Virus record (IMG/VR): IMGVR_UViG_3300047471_000852
Coordinates: 1-48,833 of that record
Length of the DNA: 48,833 bases
Source: a virus
Reading direction: 5' to 3' (one strand)
The first letter of the stretch is position 1. Each line of letters opens with the position of its first letter. This document shows positions 3 to 45,503 of the stretch, piece after piece. The translations under genes and the position numbers were made by a program. The notes beneath the pieces were generated by a model. It had not been told where the DNA came from. It searched no databases and saw only the letters and a list, made by a program, of their open reading frames with translations.

Positions 3-1112
3 ACGACCGGCGACCACCTGGCGCTGCTGCCGGGCAAGCGCGGCGCCTGCAGCGTCGAGGCCGGGTGCGGCACGCACCGCGCGGCGCAACGGTTTGTGGC
101 GGCAGAGGAGTTTCGCATGGCGACAGATGAAGAAATGGCGACACTGGCCCAAGCTTCCGGCATGATGGAGTGCCCCACCTGCGATGGTGAAGGAACATTC
201 AAGGGCAACCCGTGTCCCACCTGCGACGGCGAGGGCGAGATTCCGATGAGCGAGAATCCGCGCATGAACCGCGACATCAGCCAGAAGATGCGCGACGAGA
301 TGAGCGGCTCGGACTTCGCCGGCAAGGGCGACTCGTTCCCGATCAAGGTGCCTGGCGACGTGCAGGCTGCCGCGCGGTCCATCGGCAGGGCGGGCGCGGA
401 CAACTACTCGACGGATCAGCTGAAGGCCAACATCATCAAGATCGCCCGTCGCAAGGGCCCGTCGTTCGTCGCGCAGCTGCCGGAGGCGTGGCAGAAGGAC
501 CTGAAGGCGGCCGAGGAGTTGGTCGGACTCCTCGGCAAGCGGAACTCCGCCAAGGACGTCGAGATCATCCAGAACGTGCACGACCACGCTGTCAGCCTCG
601 GCGCTCGCTGCGACATGCAGAACATGAAGATGGCCGAGGCCAAGCCCGTCTACCTCTCGGCGAGCCTCATCGAGGACTCGCTCAACGAGCGGATGGACGA
701 CGTGCGTGAAGCCGTGCAGGCCGCGTATCCTGCGAACGTCGGGCAGATGGCCGCAAGCATGCCAGCGCCTTCCTATACCTACGTCGTGGCCGTCTACGAC
801 GACCACGTGATCATCAACACGGACGGCACGCTGTACTCCGTCGATTATACAGTCGGCAAGGACGGCGAGGTCGTACTCAGCGACAAGCAGACGGAGGTCA
901 AGCAAGCGTACGTGGCCGCGAGCGCCGTGGAAGACAAGCCGACGACCATCGTCCTCGAAGGCGGCAAGTGGACGATCAAGAGCAAGGACCAACTGCGGCG
1001 CCTCGGCAGCCACGACACGAAGCAAGAAGCGGAAGAACACGAGCAAGCCATCGCGCGAAGCCTCGCGCGACTACGGGCCGAGCCACCGACGTGCTCGTGC
1101 CAGAAACACTAA
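3..1112 (+). CDS. Head maturation/scaffold-region protein, 5' partial, with DnaJ-type zinc motif
   Basis: The reading frame is open to the left edge, so this is the C-terminal part of a longer protein; an internal GTG at 96 is unlikely to be the true start. Two Cys pairs of the CPTCDGEG type (about nt 171-236) form a DnaJ-like CxxCxGxG zinc motif. This is followed by a segment (FPIKVPGDVQAAARSIGRA, then an ARRKG/LPEAW stretch) resembling a domain often appended to phage prohead proteases or found beside them (DUF6582-like, from memory). The C-terminal 100 residues read YSVDYTVGKDGEVVLSD and end in CSCQKH. Its place ahead of the decoration and capsid genes fits a protease/scaffold role. The protease catalytic domain, if there is one, lies outside the window. 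The function is inferred from position and the partial domain match. Confidence 0.7.
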   Translation, partial: TTGDHLALLPGKRGACSVEAGCGTHRAAQRFVAAEEFRMATDEEMATLAQASGMMECPTCDGEGTFKGNPCPTCDGEGEIPMSENPRMNRDISQKMRDEMSGSDFAGKGDSFPIKVPGDVQAAARSIGRAGADNYSTDQLKANIIKIARRKGPSFVAQLPEAWQKDLKAAEELVGLLGKRNSAKDVEIIQNVHDHAVSLGARCDMQNMKMAEAKPVYLSASLIEDSLNERMDDVREAVQAAYPANVGQMAASMPAPSYTYVVAVYDDHVIINTDGTLYSVDYTVGKDGEVVLSDKQTEVKQAYVAASAVEDKPTTIVLEGGKWTIKSKDQLRRLGSHDTKQEAEEHEQAIARSLARLRAEPPTCSCQKH

Positions 1113-18453: not shown

Positions 18454-18677
18454 CTTTACAAGTAGCTCGCATGCTCGCCGAATCACTTGCCATGCAACTA
18501 GCGACATGCCCTCAGCAGTTGTGCGATGATGCCTTTCGAGAAGGCATGCATCCCCGACTGGTGGCGGGCCTGCGTGCGGCGCGAAATGCATTCACGGAAT
18601 ACGTTGGGGAAAATGATGCAGAGGAGCTCATGAAATCAATTCACGAAGAAGTGGCAGCGGGGTTGAAGGAGTTATGA
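18450..18677 (+). CDS. Small hypothetical protein in the glycosyltransferase cassette
   Basis: The 75-residue product (MTLQVARMLAESLAMQL...) starts at a GTG sharing GTGA with the preceding stop and ends in an ATGA overlap with the next gene. It is all-helical with two Cys (CPQQLC). Its GC content is clearly below that of its neighbours, so it may be a late acquisition. No family is recognised. Confidence 0.6.
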   Translation: MTLQVARMLAESLAMQLATCPQQLCDDAFREGMHPRLVAGLRAARNAFTEYVGENDAEELMKSIHEEVAAGLKEL

Positions 18678-19204
18678 TCACGTTCCTCGTTCCGACGATC
18701 GGCCGCAAGTCGTTGATCGATACGCTGCGCTCCATCGAGACGCTGCCAGGCGACGAGATCCTCGTCGTCGGCGGCAGCAACCCGGTCTGCTCCGACCCGC
18801 GCGTGCGCTGCATCCCCTGCAAGCCAGGAGGCGACTGGGGACACACCGAACGCAACTACGCGACGCCGATGGCGAAGGGCCAGTACATCGCGCACATCGA
18901 CGATGACGACATCTATGCGCCGGGGCACCGCGCGCTGATGCAAGACGCTATCCAACGGGCGCCAGGTCAGCCGGTGCTGTTCCGGATGCAGTATCCAAGT
19001 GGGGCAACATTGTGGCAAGAAAAAGTCCTTCGGTGTGGGAATGTTGGGACGCCGATGTTCTTGATCCCGAACCAACCCGAGAAGCTTGGAACGTGGAGAT
19101 CGTTCGTCGGAGGTGACTTCGTCTTCCTTGAAGAGTCGAAGTGGGCGCCGGAGGAGTTCGTGTGGCGCGAAGAAGTCGTCGCGCTGCTGGGGCATAACGT
19201 ATGA
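18674..19204 (+). CDS. Glycosyltransferase GT2-like, short
   Basis: The 176 residues begin MITFLVPTIGRKSLIDTLRSI and carry YIAHIDDDDIYAPGH, with four Asp at 76-79 as the DxD metal site. GDWGHTERNYA is the typical acceptor-side helix before it. At this length it holds the nucleotide-binding half and a minimal acceptor part. Overlaps at both ends (ATGA) place it in the same transcript as the other transferases. Confidence 0.8.
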   Translation: MITFLVPTIGRKSLIDTLRSIETLPGDEILVVGGSNPVCSDPRVRCIPCKPGGDWGHTERNYATPMAKGQYIAHIDDDDIYAPGHRALMQDAIQRAPGQPVLFRMQYPSGATLWQEKVLRCGNVGTPMFLIPNQPEKLGTWRSFVGGDFVFLEESKWAPEEFVWREEVVALLGHNV

Positions 19205-29500: not shown

Positions 29501-29733
29501 TGCCGTTCTCGCACAACGACGTGGCCCACTCGGACGTGGCCCACTCGGACTCGCCGCACACCGATTCGCGGGTCATCGTCAACCACGTTGATTCGGCGCA
29601 CGGCGACGCCACGGGGCACACCGATACAGGTCACATCGACACGCACGGCGACGTTAACCACGCGGACGTCCTGCATCAGGACGCACCGCACGACGATACG
29701 CACACGGACGCGGCGCACGGAGACATCAATTGA
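26575..29733 (+). CDS. Tail-tip/hub protein with LamG domain and C-terminal His-x-Asp repeats
   Basis: The 1052-residue protein follows the tape measure, where distal tail/hub proteins lie. Residues 1-20 hold three YFPG-type repeats (VYFPGAYFPGVYFP). Residues 78-292 form a LamG/concanavalin-type domain (YWRLGEPLG, FTVEAWVKR, EWFHVAVTWDGVRVIVYVNG, WGILDEVALYDYALS), probably a carbohydrate-binding module. Residues 380-850 form the hub-like part (HLTLDNSDRNS, RFTGTISAIDV, FRRTYGFLNVAEMARTVA). Residues 860-1052 carry 34 His-x-Asp motifs with mostly 5-residue spacing (GHTDV, LHGDI, THSDV). The stop overlaps the TTG of a radical SAM gene. The repeat tail could bind metal, be enzymatically modified, or both. 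Confidence 0.8.
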   Translation: MFAHVYFPGAYFPGVYFPLEATSSTATLIPSTAEALVGNTIQVTASGGPGHVLDRVALYRVGTPDYIDYAAIVLGDTPVAYWRLGEPLGSATIVDASGHGYVGTVNGTVIFGQPGLQQDNDTAAAFSGIDGNGVTLDTPTPVSAHFTVEAWVKRIGDSTSSSAYEYIWSSGLIVNNAVEVALFDAGATTTLQFFINFTTLTPGWIDTGYVVTDGEWFHVAVTWDGVRVIVYVNGNAVYSSAAFTGLTLYSVGSTSGTRGIGSTEGLAGPIWGILDEVALYDYALSSGQINEHLGAVVPQMVSWQYMNGTQTPPAIGLTDATLSFVMAYGGFFEFRWLFAGGWSRIATSITVSVHWTSGVVEMEFNGRGGGWTPVTDWMRNPGITWHRGLPGTNITDLVADIGTLHLTLDNSDRNSAGLMGYYSPDNVNCRKGFDLYIGLRYTVAGSRRFTGTISAIDVVPGTKGSRRVAVEAESWMGTASRTRLSGLIGVLVNNRGDQVFQAIIDSLTPSTKPLAVEKDVSSDIFPYTLDRVRDEQTLLRDEIYRLCLSGLDKCWERGDGTVVYESRSRRVTTSSSADNFPDNHGFTPTRDRNGIVNQVQSTVHPRLPSAVSVVMYSLNQPLSLVPGTPITVLGGWNDPANPNVRLGAVNLDALVATTDYTANSLADGSGTDLTSLLVVTTGLSGNATTFTITLGGATPGFLTKLQQRGKPLYDYGPVVMTYDNPASIDKSGMAFMSLDMAYQADPRFGLEAAQYVIFTLSGLQTKVSGFRRTYGFLNVAEMARTVAREVSDRITITDELTGLSKIFFINAIDEMEVEGLLTTEWLLTPADNTAFWLLEVVGRSELDATTRLGFGLIVGHTDVLHGDIHTDVAHADSVHQDSHTDAHADVSHGDDTGHTDIPHTDTPHTDTHSDVAHGDSHSDVAHVDSTQTAGYGDYHEDEAATGFHSDYWTASPVTHGDGDGSSHQDIHQDVTVPFSHNDVAHSDVAHSDSPHTDSRVIVNHVDSAHGDATGHTDTGHIDTHGDVNHADVLHQDAPHDDTHTDAAHGDIN
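29152..29730 (+). repeat. Coding His-x-Asp repeat array (34 motifs)
   Basis: The last 193 codons of the tail-tip gene encode H-x-D about every five residues, with x mostly T, G, S, A or Q and an interruption near 29370-29510 (TQTAGYGDYHEDEAATG, DYWTASPVTHGDGDG). Codons for the same residues vary, so selection appears to act on the peptide. Confidence 0.9.
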
Positions 29734-31040
29734 CGATCGAGCTGACGCCTGTCGGCGTCGCGTGCAACTTGTCATGCACATACTGCTACCAGAACCCCAT
29801 GCGCGACGCGGGGAACGTCACCGTGCCGCACGACTTCGAGAAGATGAAGGCGGGGCTGGAGCGCGAGGGCGGGTCGTTCTCGGTGTTCGGCGGCGAGGCG
29901 CTGCTTACGCCGCTGCCGCTGCTGGAAGAGATCTTCGCCTACGGCCTCCAGCGCTTCGGGTCCAACGGCATCCAGACGAACGGCGCCCTCATCACCGACG
30001 TGCACGTCGAGTTGTTCAAGCGGTACAAGGTGAACGTCGGCCTGTCGCTCGACGGGCCGGGCGAGCTGAACGACAGCCGGTGGGCGGGCTCGCTGAAGAA
30101 GACGCGCGAGGCGACGGCGCAGAGCTTCAGCGGCCTCTTTCGCCTGCTGGACGCGGGCATCGTGCCCAGCGTCATCGTGACGCTGTACCGAGGGAACGCG
30201 GTCGGCGACAAGCTGACGCAGCTGCTCGAGTGGTTCCGACTGCTCGAGGTGTACGGCGTCTACGCCGTGAGGCTGCACCTGCTGGAGGTCGAGACCGACG
30301 AGGTCCAGCAGGCGATGGCGCTGACCATCGAGGAGAACACCGCCGCGCTGCTGCGGCTCTACGAGTTCCAGGCCACGACGAAGGTCCGCTTCGACCTCTT
30401 CGGCGAGATGGCCAAGCTGCTCCTCGGCAACGACGTCGGCGCGACGTGCGTGTGGGGCGCGTGCGACCCGTACACGACGGCCGCCGTGCGCGGCGTGGAC
30501 GCGGAAGGCGAGTCGTCCAACTGCGGGCGGACGAACAAAGAGGGCATCAGTTGGCAGAAGGCCCAGACGCCGGGCTACGAGCGTCAGGTGGCGCTCTACC
30601 ATACGCCGCAGGCGGACTTCGGGTGTGAGGACTGTCGGTTCTTCTTCGCCTGCAAGGGCCAGTGCCCGGGCACGGCCGAAGGCGGCGACTGGCGGAACCG
30701 CAGCGAGCACTGCGGCGCGTGGATGACGCTGTTCGACCGCATCGAGGCGGACTTGATCAGCATCGGGCACGTGCCGCTGTCGCGGAACGACGCGCTGCGG
30801 ACGCAGGTCGACGCCCTGATGCTGAAGTACTGGGCGCGCGGCGAGAACCTCTCCATCACGCAGGCCGTCGCCGCCGTGCAGGCGGGCGTCGAGCCGACGA
30901 TCGTCCCTCCGGCGCGCGGCCACGGCGACCACTGGGACGCGCCCGACGGCTACCGGCACGCGGACGGAGACTTTACCATTCACGGCGACCGCGGAACCAC
31001 CGACATGCACGGGGACTCAGATGCCAAAAACCCTCGCTGA
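29730..31040 (+). CDS. Radical SAM/SPASM enzyme, peptide-maturase-like
   Basis: The 436-residue enzyme starts at TTG (TTGA overlap with the tail-tip stop, SD GGAG 7 bases upstream). ACNLSCTYC supplies the CxxxCxxC radical SAM cluster (C12, C16, C19). SVFGGEALLT holds the GGE motif (54-56) that helps bind SAM. Residues 240-330 have a SPASM-type Cys pattern (CVWGAC, SNCGRT, FGCEDCRFFFACKGQCPG, EHCGAW) for auxiliary Fe-S clusters, as in peptide-modifying enzymes such as anaerobic sulfatase maturases and RiPP maturases. The last 45 residues contain five His-x-Asp motifs (HGDHWD, RHADGD, IHGD, MHGD), echoing the tail protein. The likely substrate is the upstream His-x-Asp tail; the reaction is unknown. 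Confidence 0.88.
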   Translation: MTIELTPVGVACNLSCTYCYQNPMRDAGNVTVPHDFEKMKAGLEREGGSFSVFGGEALLTPLPLLEEIFAYGLQRFGSNGIQTNGALITDVHVELFKRYKVNVGLSLDGPGELNDSRWAGSLKKTREATAQSFSGLFRLLDAGIVPSVIVTLYRGNAVGDKLTQLLEWFRLLEVYGVYAVRLHLLEVETDEVQQAMALTIEENTAALLRLYEFQATTKVRFDLFGEMAKLLLGNDVGATCVWGACDPYTTAAVRGVDAEGESSNCGRTNKEGISWQKAQTPGYERQVALYHTPQADFGCEDCRFFFACKGQCPGTAEGGDWRNRSEHCGAWMTLFDRIEADLISIGHVPLSRNDALRTQVDALMLKYWARGENLSITQAVAAVQAGVEPTIVPPARGHGDHWDAPDGYRHADGDFTIHGDRGTTDMHGDSDAKNPR

Positions 31041-40060: not shown

Positions 40061-40876
40061 TTACATCTCCGCCTTGGCCTCCAGCGTCGCCGGGTCGAAG
40101 CTCACGTCGCCGGCCTCCTCCTCCGGGTGCAGCGTGTCGGCGTCGATCGCCACGGCCTTGTCCTTCCACGACTCCCACATCTCGGCGGCGAGCTGCTCGA
40201 CGCGGCTGTCGGCGACGAGCCAACCGGCGTTCTTCACCTTGTAGATCGCCCAGCTCTTGTTGCCGTCGACGTCCGATCCCGTGGCGACCGAGTAGACGCC
40301 CTTGTAGAGCGCCTTCTTGCCCCGCTGCTGAATGTAGAGGTTCAGCTGCTTGGCGACCTTCAGCGCCGACGACTTCATCGACAGCCCCATGACGTTCTGC
40401 AGCGGGTCGGTGAAGTCGAGGCCGTTCAGCAGTAGCACGATGAAGTCGTAGAACTTCGTCGCCACCGGCTTCGCCGCGCGGCCGTTCTCGTCCGGCTCGC
40501 CGAACTGCGTCCGCGGGTCGTTGGCGGGCACGTTCGGGTCCTTGACGCCGCCGCCCTGGTCAAGCGGGATGAACTCGACGTAGCGCGGCTTGTCGGCGCG
40601 CAGGATCGTGAAGAGCAGCGGCCCCTTGCCGTAGACCTTGCGCGTCAGGCTGTGGAAGAGGTCGGTGAACTGCAGCCCCTCGATGTAGCGCGGGCTGGTC
40701 GGGTCGATCTCGGGCGACGTCTTCTGCGCCAGCGCGAGGCGCGGGATGAGGATGTCCTCTCGGCCGATGTGCTCTGAGCCGAGCAGGCCGGCGTCGGCGC
40801 CTTCGGGGCGCGTCGCGGTGATGAGCGCCGAGAGGTCGGTCGGGAGGGTCGCGAGGGCGTCGTCTTTCTTCGTCAT
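40061..40876 (-). CDS. Early-region protein, possibly DNA metabolism
   Basis: The 271 residues start MTKKDDALATLPTDLSALI with SD GAAGGAG. A conserved-looking core (HIGREDILIPRLALAQKTSP, then YIEGLQFTDLFHSLTRKVYG) is shared by a widespread family of phage early proteins that often lie near recombination and ssDNA-binding genes. The C-terminal part (ALKVAKQLNLYIQQRG, WAIYKVKNAGWL) is mixed alpha/beta and ends in an acidic tail (HPEEEAGDVSFDPA), as in ssDNA-binding proteins. That comparison is weak; treat the function as unknown. Confidence 0.7.
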   Translation of the reverse strand: MTKKDDALATLPTDLSALITATRPEGADAGLLGSEHIGREDILIPRLALAQKTSPEIDPTSPRYIEGLQFTDLFHSLTRKVYGKGPLLFTILRADKPRYVEFIPLDQGGGVKDPNVPANDPRTQFGEPDENGRAAKPVATKFYDFIVLLLNGLDFTDPLQNVMGLSMKSSALKVAKQLNLYIQQRGKKALYKGVYSVATGSDVDGNKSWAIYKVKNAGWLVADSRVEQLAAEMWESWKDKAVAIDADTLHPEEEAGDVSFDPATLEAKAEM

Positions 40877-41073
40877 GCCAGCTCCTTCTTTACCTTGTGC
40901 GATGGTGGTGAGAGTGATTCGTCGATCGCGTCGATCGCGCCTTGGTGATACCACTTCAAGACGAACAGCGTCAGGACCTTGACGACGTACTCCTGCTCGG
41001 AGACTTGCCGACCGAGGATATCTGACAGGACCCCGGCGACTTCTTTGGTGACGGCGTCGATAGGACTGATCAT
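40873..41073 (-). CDS. Small hypothetical protein
   Basis: The 66 residues (MISPIDAVTKEVAGVLSDIL...) are helical with a hydrophobic VVKVLTLFVLKWYHQGAIDA segment. Four-base ATGA overlaps occur on both sides, placing it in the nuclease-region operon. No family is recognised. Confidence 0.62.
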   Translation of the reverse strand: MISPIDAVTKEVAGVLSDILGRQVSEQEYVVKVLTLFVLKWYHQGAIDAIDESLSPPSHKVKKELA

Positions 41074-41570
41074 GCCTGCGCCCCCAATCGGATGCGCGTG
41101 ACGGCCGACGTCTCGACGCCCGGCGGGACGTCCTCACCGGCCAGCAGCCGCTGCTTGACGAGGTCGACCATCGTCGACGGCCAGAGCTGGAGCTTCGGCG
41201 CGAGATCGGGGTCGGCCAGGCACCACTCCCTGAACGCCGCCCTGTCGACGACCTTCGCGCTCGGCTCGAGGTAGACGGACACAGGGCGCCCGTCGACGCG
41301 GATGTTGTCGACGCCCTCGTCCTCGAACTGCTTCGTCATCAGCTGGCTGACGGCCGTCAGCTCGACCTGCAGGTCGTAGAGCGTCGCCGCGATGGCGTCC
41401 TTCTGCTTGCGGATGCGCATGTACTCGCGCGCCAAGGCGCTCGCCGTCCGCTCGACGGCGACCTTCGCCTTCGCCGCGTTGACCTTCTCTTGGTAGTCGG
41501 GCTCCTCGCCCAAGTCGCGCGGCAGGGTCAGGCCGGCGTACTTGCCCTTGACGATCGTCTGCGTCTCCAT
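41070..41570 (-). CDS. Coiled-coil hypothetical protein (phage early family)
   Basis: The 166 residues begin METQTIVKGKYAGLTLPRDL; the ATG at 41570 has GGAG six bases upstream and lies one base after the preceding stop, so it is preferred over 41582. A long helical part (KVAVERTASALAREYMRIRK) precedes IRVDGRPVSVYLEPSAKVV, the core of a common early phage family whose members often flank annealing or nuclease genes. No enzymatic motif is visible. Confidence 0.65.
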   Translation of the reverse strand: METQTIVKGKYAGLTLPRDLGEEPDYQEKVNAAKAKVAVERTASALAREYMRIRKQKDAIAATLYDLQVELTAVSQLMTKQFEDEGVDNIRVDGRPVSVYLEPSAKVVDRAAFREWCLADPDLAPKLQLWPSTMVDLVKQRLLAGEDVPPGVETSAVTRIRLGAQA

Positions 41571-43040: not shown

Positions 43041-43324
43041 GACACCCTCACTGCACGCTTCTGAACCTCGTGGTACTGGATGACGTTCATCCCGGAGTAG
43101 CACCCGGCCCCGATGCCGGCCAATTCCCACTTCTCGCCGGTCCAGGTCATCCACTGCTTGCCGAAAGACTCGGCGAGCGTACCGTCTTCACGGGTCCAGC
43201 GGACCCAATCGATGTGGTGTGTTTGGTTGGCGATGTAGTAGGTGGGAGCGTCGGCGAGGGGAACCCAAACTTCAACGCGAGGGAAGCCGCCAGAGAACCG
43301 AACCGCCGTAACGTTGATGGCCAT
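43037..43324 (-). CDS. Hypothetical protein, first gene behind the early promoter
   Basis: The 95 residues (MAINVTAVRFSGGFPRVEVW...) are a compact beta/alpha protein with a Trp-rich strand (QWMTWTGEKWELAGIG). An upstream ATG at 43390 would lie at or before the transcription start predicted from the promoter at 43389-43417, so 43324 is preferred; it has AGAGG nine bases upstream. Confidence 0.65.
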   Translation of the reverse strand: MAINVTAVRFSGGFPRVEVWVPLADAPTYYIANQTHHIDWVRWTREDGTLAESFGKQWMTWTGEKWELAGIGAGCYSGMNVIQYHEVQKRAVRVS

Positions 43325-43388
43325 TTGCTTAGCCTCTTTCCGCCTCGCCGGTCGGGCCTGATTGCCTCGACTGGGAAAGCGTGAGTAC

Positions 43389-43417
43389 ATACTAGCGCGG
43401 GTTTTTAAGAAAGTAAA
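43389..43417 (-). promoter_or_regulatory. Sigma70-like promoter, leftward
   Basis: On the minus strand TTTACT (43412-43417), a 17-base AT-rich spacer and TAGTAT (43389-43394) give four matches out of six to each consensus box. It lies in the only AT-rich gap of the early region, just after the helicase gene. It would drive the run from 43324 to about 37119. Confidence 0.55.
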
Positions 43418-43430
43418 GCTTTATTTCGTC

Positions 43431-43464
43431 CCGCTAACCTTATGAAAAACAAAGCACTTAGCGG
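43431..43464. promoter_or_regulatory. Inverted repeat behind the helicase gene (terminator or operator)
   Basis: CCGCTAA (43431-43437) and TTAGCGG (43458-43464) are perfect 7-bp arms around a 20-base AT-rich loop, starting 7 bases after the helicase stop in the direction of transcription. A further related half-site, TAGCGCGGG, overlaps the promoter -10 (43393-43401). The set could be a terminator or a repressor site. Confidence 0.45.
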
Positions 43465-43470
43465 CCGTCG

Positions 43471-45231
43471 TCACTCCTCCGTCAGGACCTTCACCCACCC
43501 CGCCGTCGTCAGGTCGTTCAGCTGCATTTTTCCTAATCTCGCCAACATTATGTATCTGTCAATCGTAGCCTGCCCTTTTGGGCCGACCGCCGTGAGGTAG
43601 AAGAAGCTCACGGGCCCCGTCTGCCCGGTGCGGTTCACCCTGGCGTCGCCCTGCTTCTTTTTCCACGGAGAGAAGTCGTAGCTGACGTCGAGCACCGTGC
43701 GGCAGGCGGTGAAGTTCAAGCCCATCGCCCCCGTGCCCTGCGTCGCGGCGACGGTGGCCGGACCGACTGGCGCCGTCTTCGGGTGGAGCAGCCGGAGCGC
43801 CACCTCGCGCTCCTGCTTCTTCGTCTGCTCGTCGTCGAACGCCTTCGCGCCGCACGCCGCGCCGACAGGATGCCGGAACGTCCGGCTGACCTCGTTCACG
43901 TAGCGGCGCAGCTCCGGTACGAAGCGGCACCACGTGAGCAGCTTCAGGTTGGGGTTCCGCTTCAGCCACTCGGCCTGCAGCGCGAGCGCGAAGTCGAGCT
44001 TCTCGCGGCCGATCTCGACGACATTACTCGTGCCATCCGTCCATGAGTTTCTTGCAGTAACGACAACGTTCCCACCAGAAACCGAGGCCCCCATAGGTAC
44101 CACGCAATTCTGATTGATAATGGTGCCACCCGAGTTGGCAGAAAATAGCGTGGAGTCTTCGCATGCCTCGTCTCCAATGTTCGCGTCCTCGATCCCGCCG
44201 AGGAAGCCGCTCGTGATCTGCGCCAGCCGGATGACCTTCACGCCGGTTTGGCTCGCCGTGGCGACGCCAGACTTCAGCCAGACGACCATCTCGTCGCGCA
44301 TCTCCTTGTAGACCTTCCACGTCGCCGGCGTCAGCGGCACGTCGAAGCCCACCGGCGGCAGGGCGAAGTCGACGCCGAAGTCTTTCGCCTCGCGGCGCAG
44401 CACGTACGGCGCGAAGCGCTGCTGCAGGTCCGCGATGCCGTCCGGCCGCCAGCCGACGATCGTCGTGGCGAAGCGCTGCTTCGGCGTCGGGTTGTAGAGG
44501 CTCACCGGCTGCTGCAGGGCGTAGCGCCCCTTGAAGTGCGTCTGCGTCTTGCACGCGAGGATGGACGGGTGGAGCAGGTTGCCTTGCGCGAACAGGTCCA
44601 TCGGACTCTCGGCCACCGGCGTCCCGTTCATCTCCAGCACGCGCCCGCAGCGCGGGACGCCTGGCACCGGGCGGCCGTTCTTGTTCTGCTGCCACCGCAG
44701 CAGCATGCAGGCCTCGGTCTGGGCCGAGCCCGCGGTCCGCACGGCCGACGACTCGTCGAGCACGAGCATCGTCCTCGGGCCGCAGTATGGCAGCAGCGTC
44801 GCGAGGTTCTTCTTGCTGCGGATGAATTCGTAGTTCGAGATGACCCAGCGCAGCTCCTTGGCCTCCTTCCGGCCATGACGCCAGTGCTGGAGCTTCGCGT
44901 GGTACTCGGTGACGAGGTTCTGCTTGTCCTCGAACACCTGCTCGTGCAGCTGCCCGAGGTCGGTGTCGTACCAGACCTTCGTGCGGATCGAGGCCGGCGT
45001 GATGACGATGACGCGGTCGATGACGTCGGCGTCGTGGAGGAACTGGGCCGCGATGATGGCCTGGGCGGTCTTCATCCCGCCCATGTCGTCACAGAGGAAG
45101 AAGTACGGATTGGCGACGATGGCGCGCACGCCGACCTTCACGTGCTCCGGCGGCGGACTCCAGAAGCCACCAGCCTCCGACTCGTCGGGTACCCAGACCT
45201 TGCGGCAACGAGAGAAGTCAAGGTCGGTCAT
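43471..45231 (-). CDS. SF2/SNF2-like DNA helicase with an AT-rich insertion
   Basis: The 586 residues contain motif I CDDMGGMKTAQA (47-58), where the usual GxGKT reads G-G-M-K-T; motif II MLVLDESSA (155-163, a DExx box); motif III region EMNGTPVAESPMDL; and motif VI QGDARVNRTGQTG near residues 535-547, as in SNF2-type helicases. RecA-like lobe two begins near residue 410 (GREKLDFALALQAEWL). Residues 356-403 between the lobes are Ser/Asn/Gly-rich, AT-rich at DNA level and overlap a second coding frame (44024-44164). A role in DNA replication or recombination is likely. The Met in motif I may affect ATP use. Confidence 0.85.
   Translation of the reverse strand: MTDLDFSRCRKVWVPDESEAGGFWSPPPEHVKVGVRAIVANPYFFLCDDMGGMKTAQAIIAAQFLHDADVIDRVIVITPASIRTKVWYDTDLGQLHEQVFEDKQNLVTEYHAKLQHWRHGRKEAKELRWVISNYEFIRSKKNLATLLPYCGPRTMLVLDESSAVRTAGSAQTEACMLLRWQQNKNGRPVPGVPRCGRVLEMNGTPVAESPMDLFAQGNLLHPSILACKTQTHFKGRYALQQPVSLYNPTPKQRFATTIVGWRPDGIADLQQRFAPYVLRREAKDFGVDFALPPVGFDVPLTPATWKVYKEMRDEMVVWLKSGVATASQTGVKVIRLAQITSGFLGGIEDANIGDEACEDSTLFSANSGGTIINQNCVVPMGASVSGGNVVVTARNSWTDGTSNVVEIGREKLDFALALQAEWLKRNPNLKLLTWCRFVPELRRYVNEVSRTFRHPVGAACGAKAFDDEQTKKQEREVALRLLHPKTAPVGPATVAATQGTGAMGLNFTACRTVLDVSYDFSPWKKKQGDARVNRTGQTGPVSFFYLTAVGPKGQATIDRYIMLARLGKMQLNDLTTAGWVKVLTEE
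44024..44164 (-). CDS. 46-residue zinc-finger-like ORF nested in the helicase gene
   Basis: In another frame of the same strand, an ATG with SD GGAG at 7 bases begins MRRLHAIFCQLGWHHYQS, continues through GTYGGLGFWWERCRYCKK, and ends LMDGWHE-stop. The C-x3-W-H-H and C-x2-C set and dense Trp/Tyr content look like a real small zinc-binding protein. The helicase frame over the same bases gives a low-complexity linker. GC content is lower than on either side, which suggests an inserted gene kept open in the host frame. Confidence 0.6.
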   Translation of the reverse strand: MRRLHAIFCQLGWHHYQSELRGTYGGLGFWWERCRYCKKLMDGWHE

Positions 45232-45503
45232 TCTTCAATCTCGTTCACCAAGCTGCCTTTGGCCCTGTCGTCCGTCACCTCGTAGATCGCCACGTGCGTG
45301 CCGACCTCCCAGACTCGCTTGCAATCAGGGCAACGGAAGAAGTAGAAGAAATCACCGTCGAAGTGGCCTCCTCCGCCGCAGGCGCAGTGCACCTCGCAGC
45401 AAACGTCCGTGCCCTTCCACTGGATCCAGATGTGCGGCTTGCCCTTGAACATCGGCGACTCGACGTCGAGGTGAGACGGCGGGTGCTTGAACGAGTCGGT
45501 CAT
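45228..45503 (-). CDS. Small zinc-ribbon protein
   Basis: The 91 residues begin MTDSFKHPPSHLDVESPMFK and include IWIQWKGTDVCCEVHCACGG and FFRCPDCKRVWEVG, a zinc-ribbon site typical of a common phage protein ('WxQWKGTDxCxDxxC'-like pattern). SD AAAGGA. The stop overlaps the helicase ATG, so it is the gene directly ahead of the helicase. Confidence 0.68.
   Translation of the reverse strand: MTDSFKHPPSHLDVESPMFKGKPHIWIQWKGTDVCCEVHCACGGGGHFDGDFFYFFRCPDCKRVWEVGTHVAIYEVTDDRAKGSLVNEIEE

Follow-up and report, generated by a model that had tools for sequence, protein, structure and literature searches.

A probable small accessory gene nested out of frame in the inter-lobe linker of a phage SNF2-type helicase

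The DNA analysed here, referred to as the window, is the 48,833-base uncultivated virus record IMGVR_UViG_3300047471_000852. Its SNF2-type helicase gene carries, in another frame of the linker between the two helicase lobes, a 46-codon ORF that we judge with fairly high confidence to be a real, translated small accessory phage gene. As far as sequence comparison can tell, this gene would not be derived from the helicase, and the linker that it occupies would be one that has been filled repeatedly. The features concerned are as follows.

43471-45231 (-): host gene, encoding a 586-aa SNF2-type superfamily 2 helicase (PF00176, phrog_62, Foldseek, AlphaFold2)
44203-45144 (-): helicase lobe 1, residues about 30-343, conserved (Pfam, AlphaFold2 model)
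44002-44202 (-): hypervariable inter-lobe linker, residues 344-410, 67 aa (63-sequence alignment, pLDDT)
43474-44001 (-): helicase lobe 2, residues 411-586, conserved (AlphaFold2 model)
44024-44164 (-): 46-aa nested ORF in frame +2 of the helicase gene, putative ligands C9, H14, C34 and C37 (ORF listing, motif)
44172-44175 (-): GGAG, Shine-Dalgarno (SD)-like, with a spacer of 7 nt to the nested ATG (duplex energy)

With two RecA-like lobes and an SNF2 domain, the host protein is an SNF2-type superfamily 2 helicase. It matches PF00176 in Pfam (E 2e-9) and the DNA helicase family phrog_62 in PHROGs (E 1.2e-54), and its AlphaFold2 model matches SNF2 folds of the PDB down to E 2e-20, the best being the Ino80 ATPase 8atf_G (Foldseek). 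The host gene belongs by sequence and by fold to phrog_62 / SNF2 (PF00176), a family whose description, to our knowledge, does not include a gene nested in the inter-lobe linker. The model, built on a 40-row alignment, has a mean pLDDT of 84.7, and residues 345-402 are its only segment below pLDDT 50, which places the stretch between the lobes, as the sequence-only reading had put it; this segment is predicted to form a disordered inter-lobe loop. The close relatives compared with the window come from viral-contig scans (L010-L022, L090-L152), and a further one, L153, from a contig of a Sulfuricaulis metagenome-assembled genome; L149 and L151, which are partial or distant, were excluded from the helicase set. 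Defined as the stretch between QITSGF and (G/S)REKLD, the linker ranges from 14 to 79 aa among 63 aligned helicases, and its sequences are unlike one another. The segment is already absent from the distant helicases of named phages (about 21-25% identical). In exact-word and DNA searches of the phage collection, neither the helicase nor window positions 1-25000 had a match at the DNA level; a single-protein scan of viral contigs confirmed 0 of 5 stretches, and tblastn of plasmids returned just two distant helicases. Eight relatives (L091, L116, L122, L129, L130, L199, L206, L218) have an in-frame zinc-knuckle-like stretch (CxxCxGxG or similar) in the linker; the site can thus hold zinc motifs in the helicase frame as well.

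The nested ORF starts with ATG at 44164, ends with TAA at 44024, overlaps helicase codons 356-403 and encodes MRRLHAIFCQLGWHHYQSELRGTYGGLGFWWERCRYCKKLMDGWHE, exactly as the sequence-only reading had located it. The SD site which that reading assigned to it is present, its GGAG pairing with the anti-SD at -6.4 kcal/mol across a 7-nt spacer. So is the Cys/His pattern, C-x-L-G-W-H-x-Y...C-x2-C, and the 46-aa protein, with its four candidate ligands, would probably bind zinc. A motif written after the sequences had been seen, C.LG[FW]H.Y.{5,30}C..C, is found in 2 of 38,852 ORFs (window and L153), both nested in the linker, and does not occur in 20 whole-set shuffles. The window ORF has no match in Pfam, PHROGs or NCBIfam. 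Its model combines a helix with a hairpin at modest confidence (pLDDT 68) and matches no PDB fold at E <= 0.001. The GC content of the nested frame by codon position (0.53, 0.45, 0.55) is not diagnostic, and no unusual lack of structure is seen around the start (z 0.43).

The helicase reading of the same stretch is polar and of low complexity, and its frame of 586 codons stays open without a stop across the nested ORF; its low complexity and the unbroken frame had been claimed, and both hold. The description of the stretch as an AT-rich insertion has to be qualified. GC is moderately lower, about 51-55% over the nested stretch and 54% over the whole linker, compared with about 60-76% for the bulk of the gene, so that "AT-rich" holds only in a relative sense and overstates the difference. 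Likewise, the linker is unusually long at 67 aa, but it is not a clean addition, a variable linker (14-79 aa) having been replaced or enlarged. No flanking repeats that would indicate a transposition scar were found around the nested insert. An intein was rejected, as the model predicts disorder for the roughly 58 in-frame residues and the helicase holds no second Pfam domain, and a group I/II intron was rejected, as the host frame is uninterrupted and positions 43300-45400 contain no Rfam match at E <= 1.

An open alternative frame is by itself unremarkable. ATG ORFs of at least 46 codons arose in 138 of 5000 synonymous recodings with the codon usage of the gene and in 1243 of 5000 with that of the linker. 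At least 30 codons, an SD of -6 or lower and a protein-like score about that observed came together in 0 of 5000 and 18 of 5000 recodings, respectively. Among 54 non-redundant helicases (the 63 less nine near-duplicates: L101, L113, L119, L121, L125-L128, L145) there are five SD-led, protein-like nested ORFs, and all five lie in the linker, which takes up 8.0% of the gene length (binomial p 3.4e-6). The thresholds for this count, SD <= -5.5 and a score above 0, were fixed after the first candidates were known. With SD <= -4 and a score above 0, 5 of 7 ORFs lie in the linker (p 6e-5); with SD <= 0 and any score, 9 of 94 do (p 0.34). The five ORFs are of three kinds, zinc-finger-like (window and L153), coiled-coil-like (L102 and L108) and transmembrane-like (L092). 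Those of the relatives are listed below.

L092, in the linker: nested ORF of 31 aa, hydrophobic, MEALPILIWLILMGLVGLALTVYGVIHRRDL
L102 (51 aa), L108 (41 aa) and L153 (36 aa), in the linker: nested ORFs, SD-led and protein-like

Several other candidates were set aside. The nested ORFs of L090, L093, L097 and L112 are Arg/Ser-rich or have a weak SD and were taken as noise, and those of L104 and L150 do not combine the required SD and position. Top scorers outside the linker (L103, L140, L150, WIN and L116 genes) are, from their positions, apparently real genes overlapped by over-long gene calls. From 21 further loci, one of them without the motif, 20 relatives were scanned; in none did a candidate reach SD <= -4 or score > 0, although the linker end was misplaced in seven (L219, L222-L225, L228, L230). 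The L112 helicase gene also has, outside the linker, two hydrophobic ATG ORFs in alternative frames with weaker SDs (MQPKSYLRLMLWIGFLLLLLPLF..., MQHLGYWILEFVLLVPLWWLALR...).

Comparison of the two frames indicates which of them is conserved. The nested proteins of L102 and L108 match each other with phmmer E 0.002 in both directions among 26,249 ORFs and align over KKGF..LD. Shuffles score as high as this pair in 0 of 10,000 cases in the nested frame vs 641 of 10,000 in the helicase frame. Against a free-standing protein from the phage of L106, described below, L102 and L108 are equalled by 0 and 0 of 10,000 shuffles in the nested frame, while the helicase frame gives 543 and 1495. For the window and L153, whose nested ORFs share frame +2 and begin 38 and 41 nt past the start of the linker, the corresponding counts are 41 of 10,000 (nested) and 7862 of 10,000 (helicase). 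The outcome that would have told against a nested gene, conserved helicase-frame residues together with a disrupted small ORF, is thus the reverse of what this pair displays. Mismatches between L102 and L108 at the three nested codon positions number 24, 17 and 26 of 41; position 2 changes least, which means that the helicase wobble position is the most conserved. In addition, helicase-frame GC3 falls from gene to linker, from 0.89 to 0.37 in L102, from 0.87 to 0.48 in L092 and from 0.56 to 0.31 in L108, and the nested frames of these three have an ordinary coding GC pattern. For the window and L153 the pattern of GC by position is not diagnostic.

All five helicases with a nested ORF fall within one 13-row group (support 97/97) of the tree, from which the nine near-duplicates were likewise left out. 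L102 and L108, the coiled-coil-like pair, are sisters (99/77); their next relative, L106, is without a nested ORF, and L153 adjoins them. The window and L153 are not sisters. The sister of the window is L090, with a helicase identity of 65% in the best tblastn segment and 69% over the tree columns, followed by L091 at 58%. The alignment of homologues that had been proposed as a check finds the segment varying in length and sequence among the 63 helicases, and the linkers of L090 and L091, which differ from that of the window, hold no plausible nested gene. Because these two nearest relatives are without the ORF, the conservation of the window ORF rests on one partner, L153.

The coiled-coil type has a free-standing counterpart. 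A profile of the L102 and L108 proteins, run over 49 whole records, finds one further copy, in the phage of L106 (E 9e-12), and the free-standing L106 protein as a single query retrieves the nested copies among 38,852 ORFs with E 4.9e-6 and 3.2e-5. This gene encodes 46 aa, has its own SD and lies between a glycosyltransferase-like gene and another small gene; the helicase linker of the same phage is 32 aa long, without a nested ORF. Two further records have a free-standing copy with the same surroundings. In the record of L102, a profile search found no second coiled-coil copy, and the glycosyltransferase site is occupied by a different gene. The free-standing gene contains one stop in the would-be helicase frame, and the nested copies contain none. 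Most simply, the gene would have entered the linker with the helicase frame kept stop-free, the alternative being the reverse movement, from the linker to a free-standing position; we infer movement into the linker. The coiled-coil protein has no useful match in phages and none in PHROGs, Pfam or NCBIfam. The glycosyltransferase-like gene, at 18671-19198 (+) in the window, is common to the clade (7 of the 13 records searched match, the window included), and the gene downstream of it varies by phage, being the free-standing coiled-coil gene in L106.

For the zinc type the ties to free-standing proteins are of unequal strength. The proteins of phrog_15735 and Curtobacterium phage Ellison17 gp22, free-standing and 40-41 aa long, have C-x-L-G-[FW]-H-x-Y near the N-terminus as in the nested ORFs; in gp22 a C-x2-C follows, as in the window ORF. 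The L153 nested protein has the Cys/His pattern of the window and matches phrog_15735 with E 0.0015 over 11 residues. Free-standing carriers of the pattern are Ellison17 gp22 (40 aa), L267 (43 aa), L268 (51 aa) and L270 (48 aa), the last three each with start and stop. Scored with a profile of these four, L153 stands above all 20,000 composition shuffles, and the window ORF is equalled or exceeded by 226 of 20,000, or by 107 of 20,000 when L153 is added to the profile. A search of 38,852 ORFs with the four-member profile did not report the window ORF. By tblastn in phages, its best match is the C-terminus of SadLad gp9 at E 0.1, and a scan of viral contigs (query A7) gave 48 stretches with the pattern, 0 of them confirmed. 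Among the fetched records, profile searches of the zinc ORF covering 49 and 50 of them found the window itself only (1/49) and the window with the L153 genome only (2/50). The phrog_15735 profile gives weak matches in 4 of the 50 records and also responds in 11 of 14 controls, and thus lacks specificity. The window ORF probably belongs to this family of free-standing zinc-finger-like proteins. The proposed search for free-standing homologues succeeds for the coiled-coil type, in the phage of L106, and for the zinc type clearly in the case of L153 and weakly in that of the window.

From the clustering in the linker, the likeness in the nested frame and the free-standing coiled-coil sister copy, it follows that small phage genes have repeatedly come to lie out of frame in the linker while the helicase stays intact, and the sequence data support the earlier view of a gene inserted into a permissive helicase linker. 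The GGAG and ATG suggest that the nested ORF is translated and that both products are made. Ribosomes would initiate at these signals inside the helicase message and produce the 46-aa protein, which would probably bind zinc (C-H-C-C) and would most likely act as a small regulator directed at the host or the phage. Other ribosomes would read the same stretch in the helicase frame as a polar disordered loop which the helicase tolerates. The nested gene would not have been born within the helicase but would come from a pool of small accessory genes that phages also carry in free-standing form, and the linker in this helicase clade would have been repeatedly occupied by such genes. The linker may suit them because acidic helicase codons spell the SD in several relatives, GAGGAGG within I-E-E in L102 and GAAGGAGAAGGG within V-E-G-E-G in L153. 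For a further step we see the case as evenly balanced, namely that the linker is an exchangeable dual-coding cargo site, into which unrelated ready-made small genes are repeatedly swapped out of frame and from which they are expressed on a helicase message that is hard to lose. Such swapping might be easy because an incoming gene need only read as polar and stop-free in the helicase frame, acidic codons there spelling SD-like purine tracts.

The nested ORF could instead be a chance ORF, left open by accident in the frames of a GC-rich gene across an unconstrained linker, with a coincidental Cys/His pattern and SD. Its length alone, equalled in 2.8-25% of recodings, is compatible with this, and the weakest nested candidates (those of L090, L093, L097 and L112) do resemble frame noise. 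We nevertheless regard chance as unlikely, in view of the SD-led, protein-like ORFs clustering in the linker in five cases out of five, of two pairs (L102-L108 and window-L153) that are alike in the nested frame only, and of the free-standing homologue of one cargo. Alternatively, the small ORF could have evolved within the helicase linker by de novo overprinting instead of arriving as a gene. Overlapping genes of viruses classically arise in this way (a review is PMC8227390), the linker is acidic and its Glu codons GAGGAG supply SD-like tracts, as in the L102 sequence, and the window ORF is tied weakly to free-standing proteins. Overprinting is hard to reconcile with a coiled-coil protein that stands in an ordinary gene string in three viral records, and with the L153 zinc protein, whose match to free-standing proteins no shuffle in 20,000 equals; we consider it improbable.

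The nearest precedent for a gene nested in the helicase is the ShiLan insertion. The ShiLan domain of mycobacteriophage methylases and the different Pacc40 gp60 insertion are out-of-frame HNH endonucleases in phage DNA methylases (PMC11855218); Applejack gp54/gp55 is a further related case (PMC12613952). The shared features are an another-frame gene in a phage DNA-metabolism gene, a stop-free host frame read as a disordered loop, patchy distribution and no signs of an intron or intein. The disjunct distribution recurs here, the ORF being in the window, absent from L090 and L091 and similar to one in L153. The nested ORFs might be tied to a ShiLan-like insertion, whose published form combines an uninterrupted phage host frame with a hidden gene and whose HNH carries zinc fingers (PMC11855218). 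Against this, every nested ORF here is whole, with an SD, a start and a stop of its own, the free-standing relatives are 40-51 aa long, the other cargoes are coiled-coil-like and transmembrane-like, there is no HNH domain, and the site is a variable linker and not a conserved motif, so that we find this connection very improbable. The cargo in ShiLan and Pacc40 is an HNH nuclease of 195 aa (or 160 aa), which can explain its own mobility, whereas the cargo here is 31-51 aa, of three kinds and non-nuclease. ShiLan inserts at conserved residues, starts with GTG and has no SD detected by its authors, who propose homing (PMC11855218), whereas the ORFs here start with ATG behind an SD and lie in a hypervariable linker of 14-79 aa. 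A free-standing sister copy also sets the helicase-linker case apart from ShiLan as described there. We retain the reading of a small accessory phage gene nested in the linker.

Classical nested phage genes, such as lambda Rz1 within Rz, phiX174 E within D and the embedded lysis genes of leviviruses, are likewise small genes whose translation begins inside a larger gene and in a different frame. They are fixed pairs, mostly for lysis, whereas here a helicase is the host and its relatives carry different nested genes. The usual explanation of a nested gene is that an old frame was overprinted de novo. With at least one cargo here the order looks reversed, in that a free-standing relative of the small gene exists and it is the helicase frame that has adapted, as a disordered, stop-free linker. 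If true, variable linkers of large phage proteins would be hidden storage sites for accessory genes, which gene callers would miss because they allow one frame per locus. The same linker can also be compared empty and filled within one clade. A literature search by title and opening of the abstract, with little coverage of subscription journals and preprint servers, turned up no description of a gene nested in the linker of a phage SNF2 helicase.

Other parts of the window gave some separate observations. A radical SAM domain protein is encoded at 29730-31040 (+) (phrog_1802, E 2e-28). At 40061-41137 (-), a 66-aa SD-led ORF in another frame (MISPIDAVTKEV...) overlaps the 5' end, and the match to phrog_2402 does not start before residue 107; the mechanical start of the longer ORF is probably too early. 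Near the start of a 338-aa ORF (96-1112), positions 171-240 (+) encode two DnaJ-like CPTCDGEG repeats.
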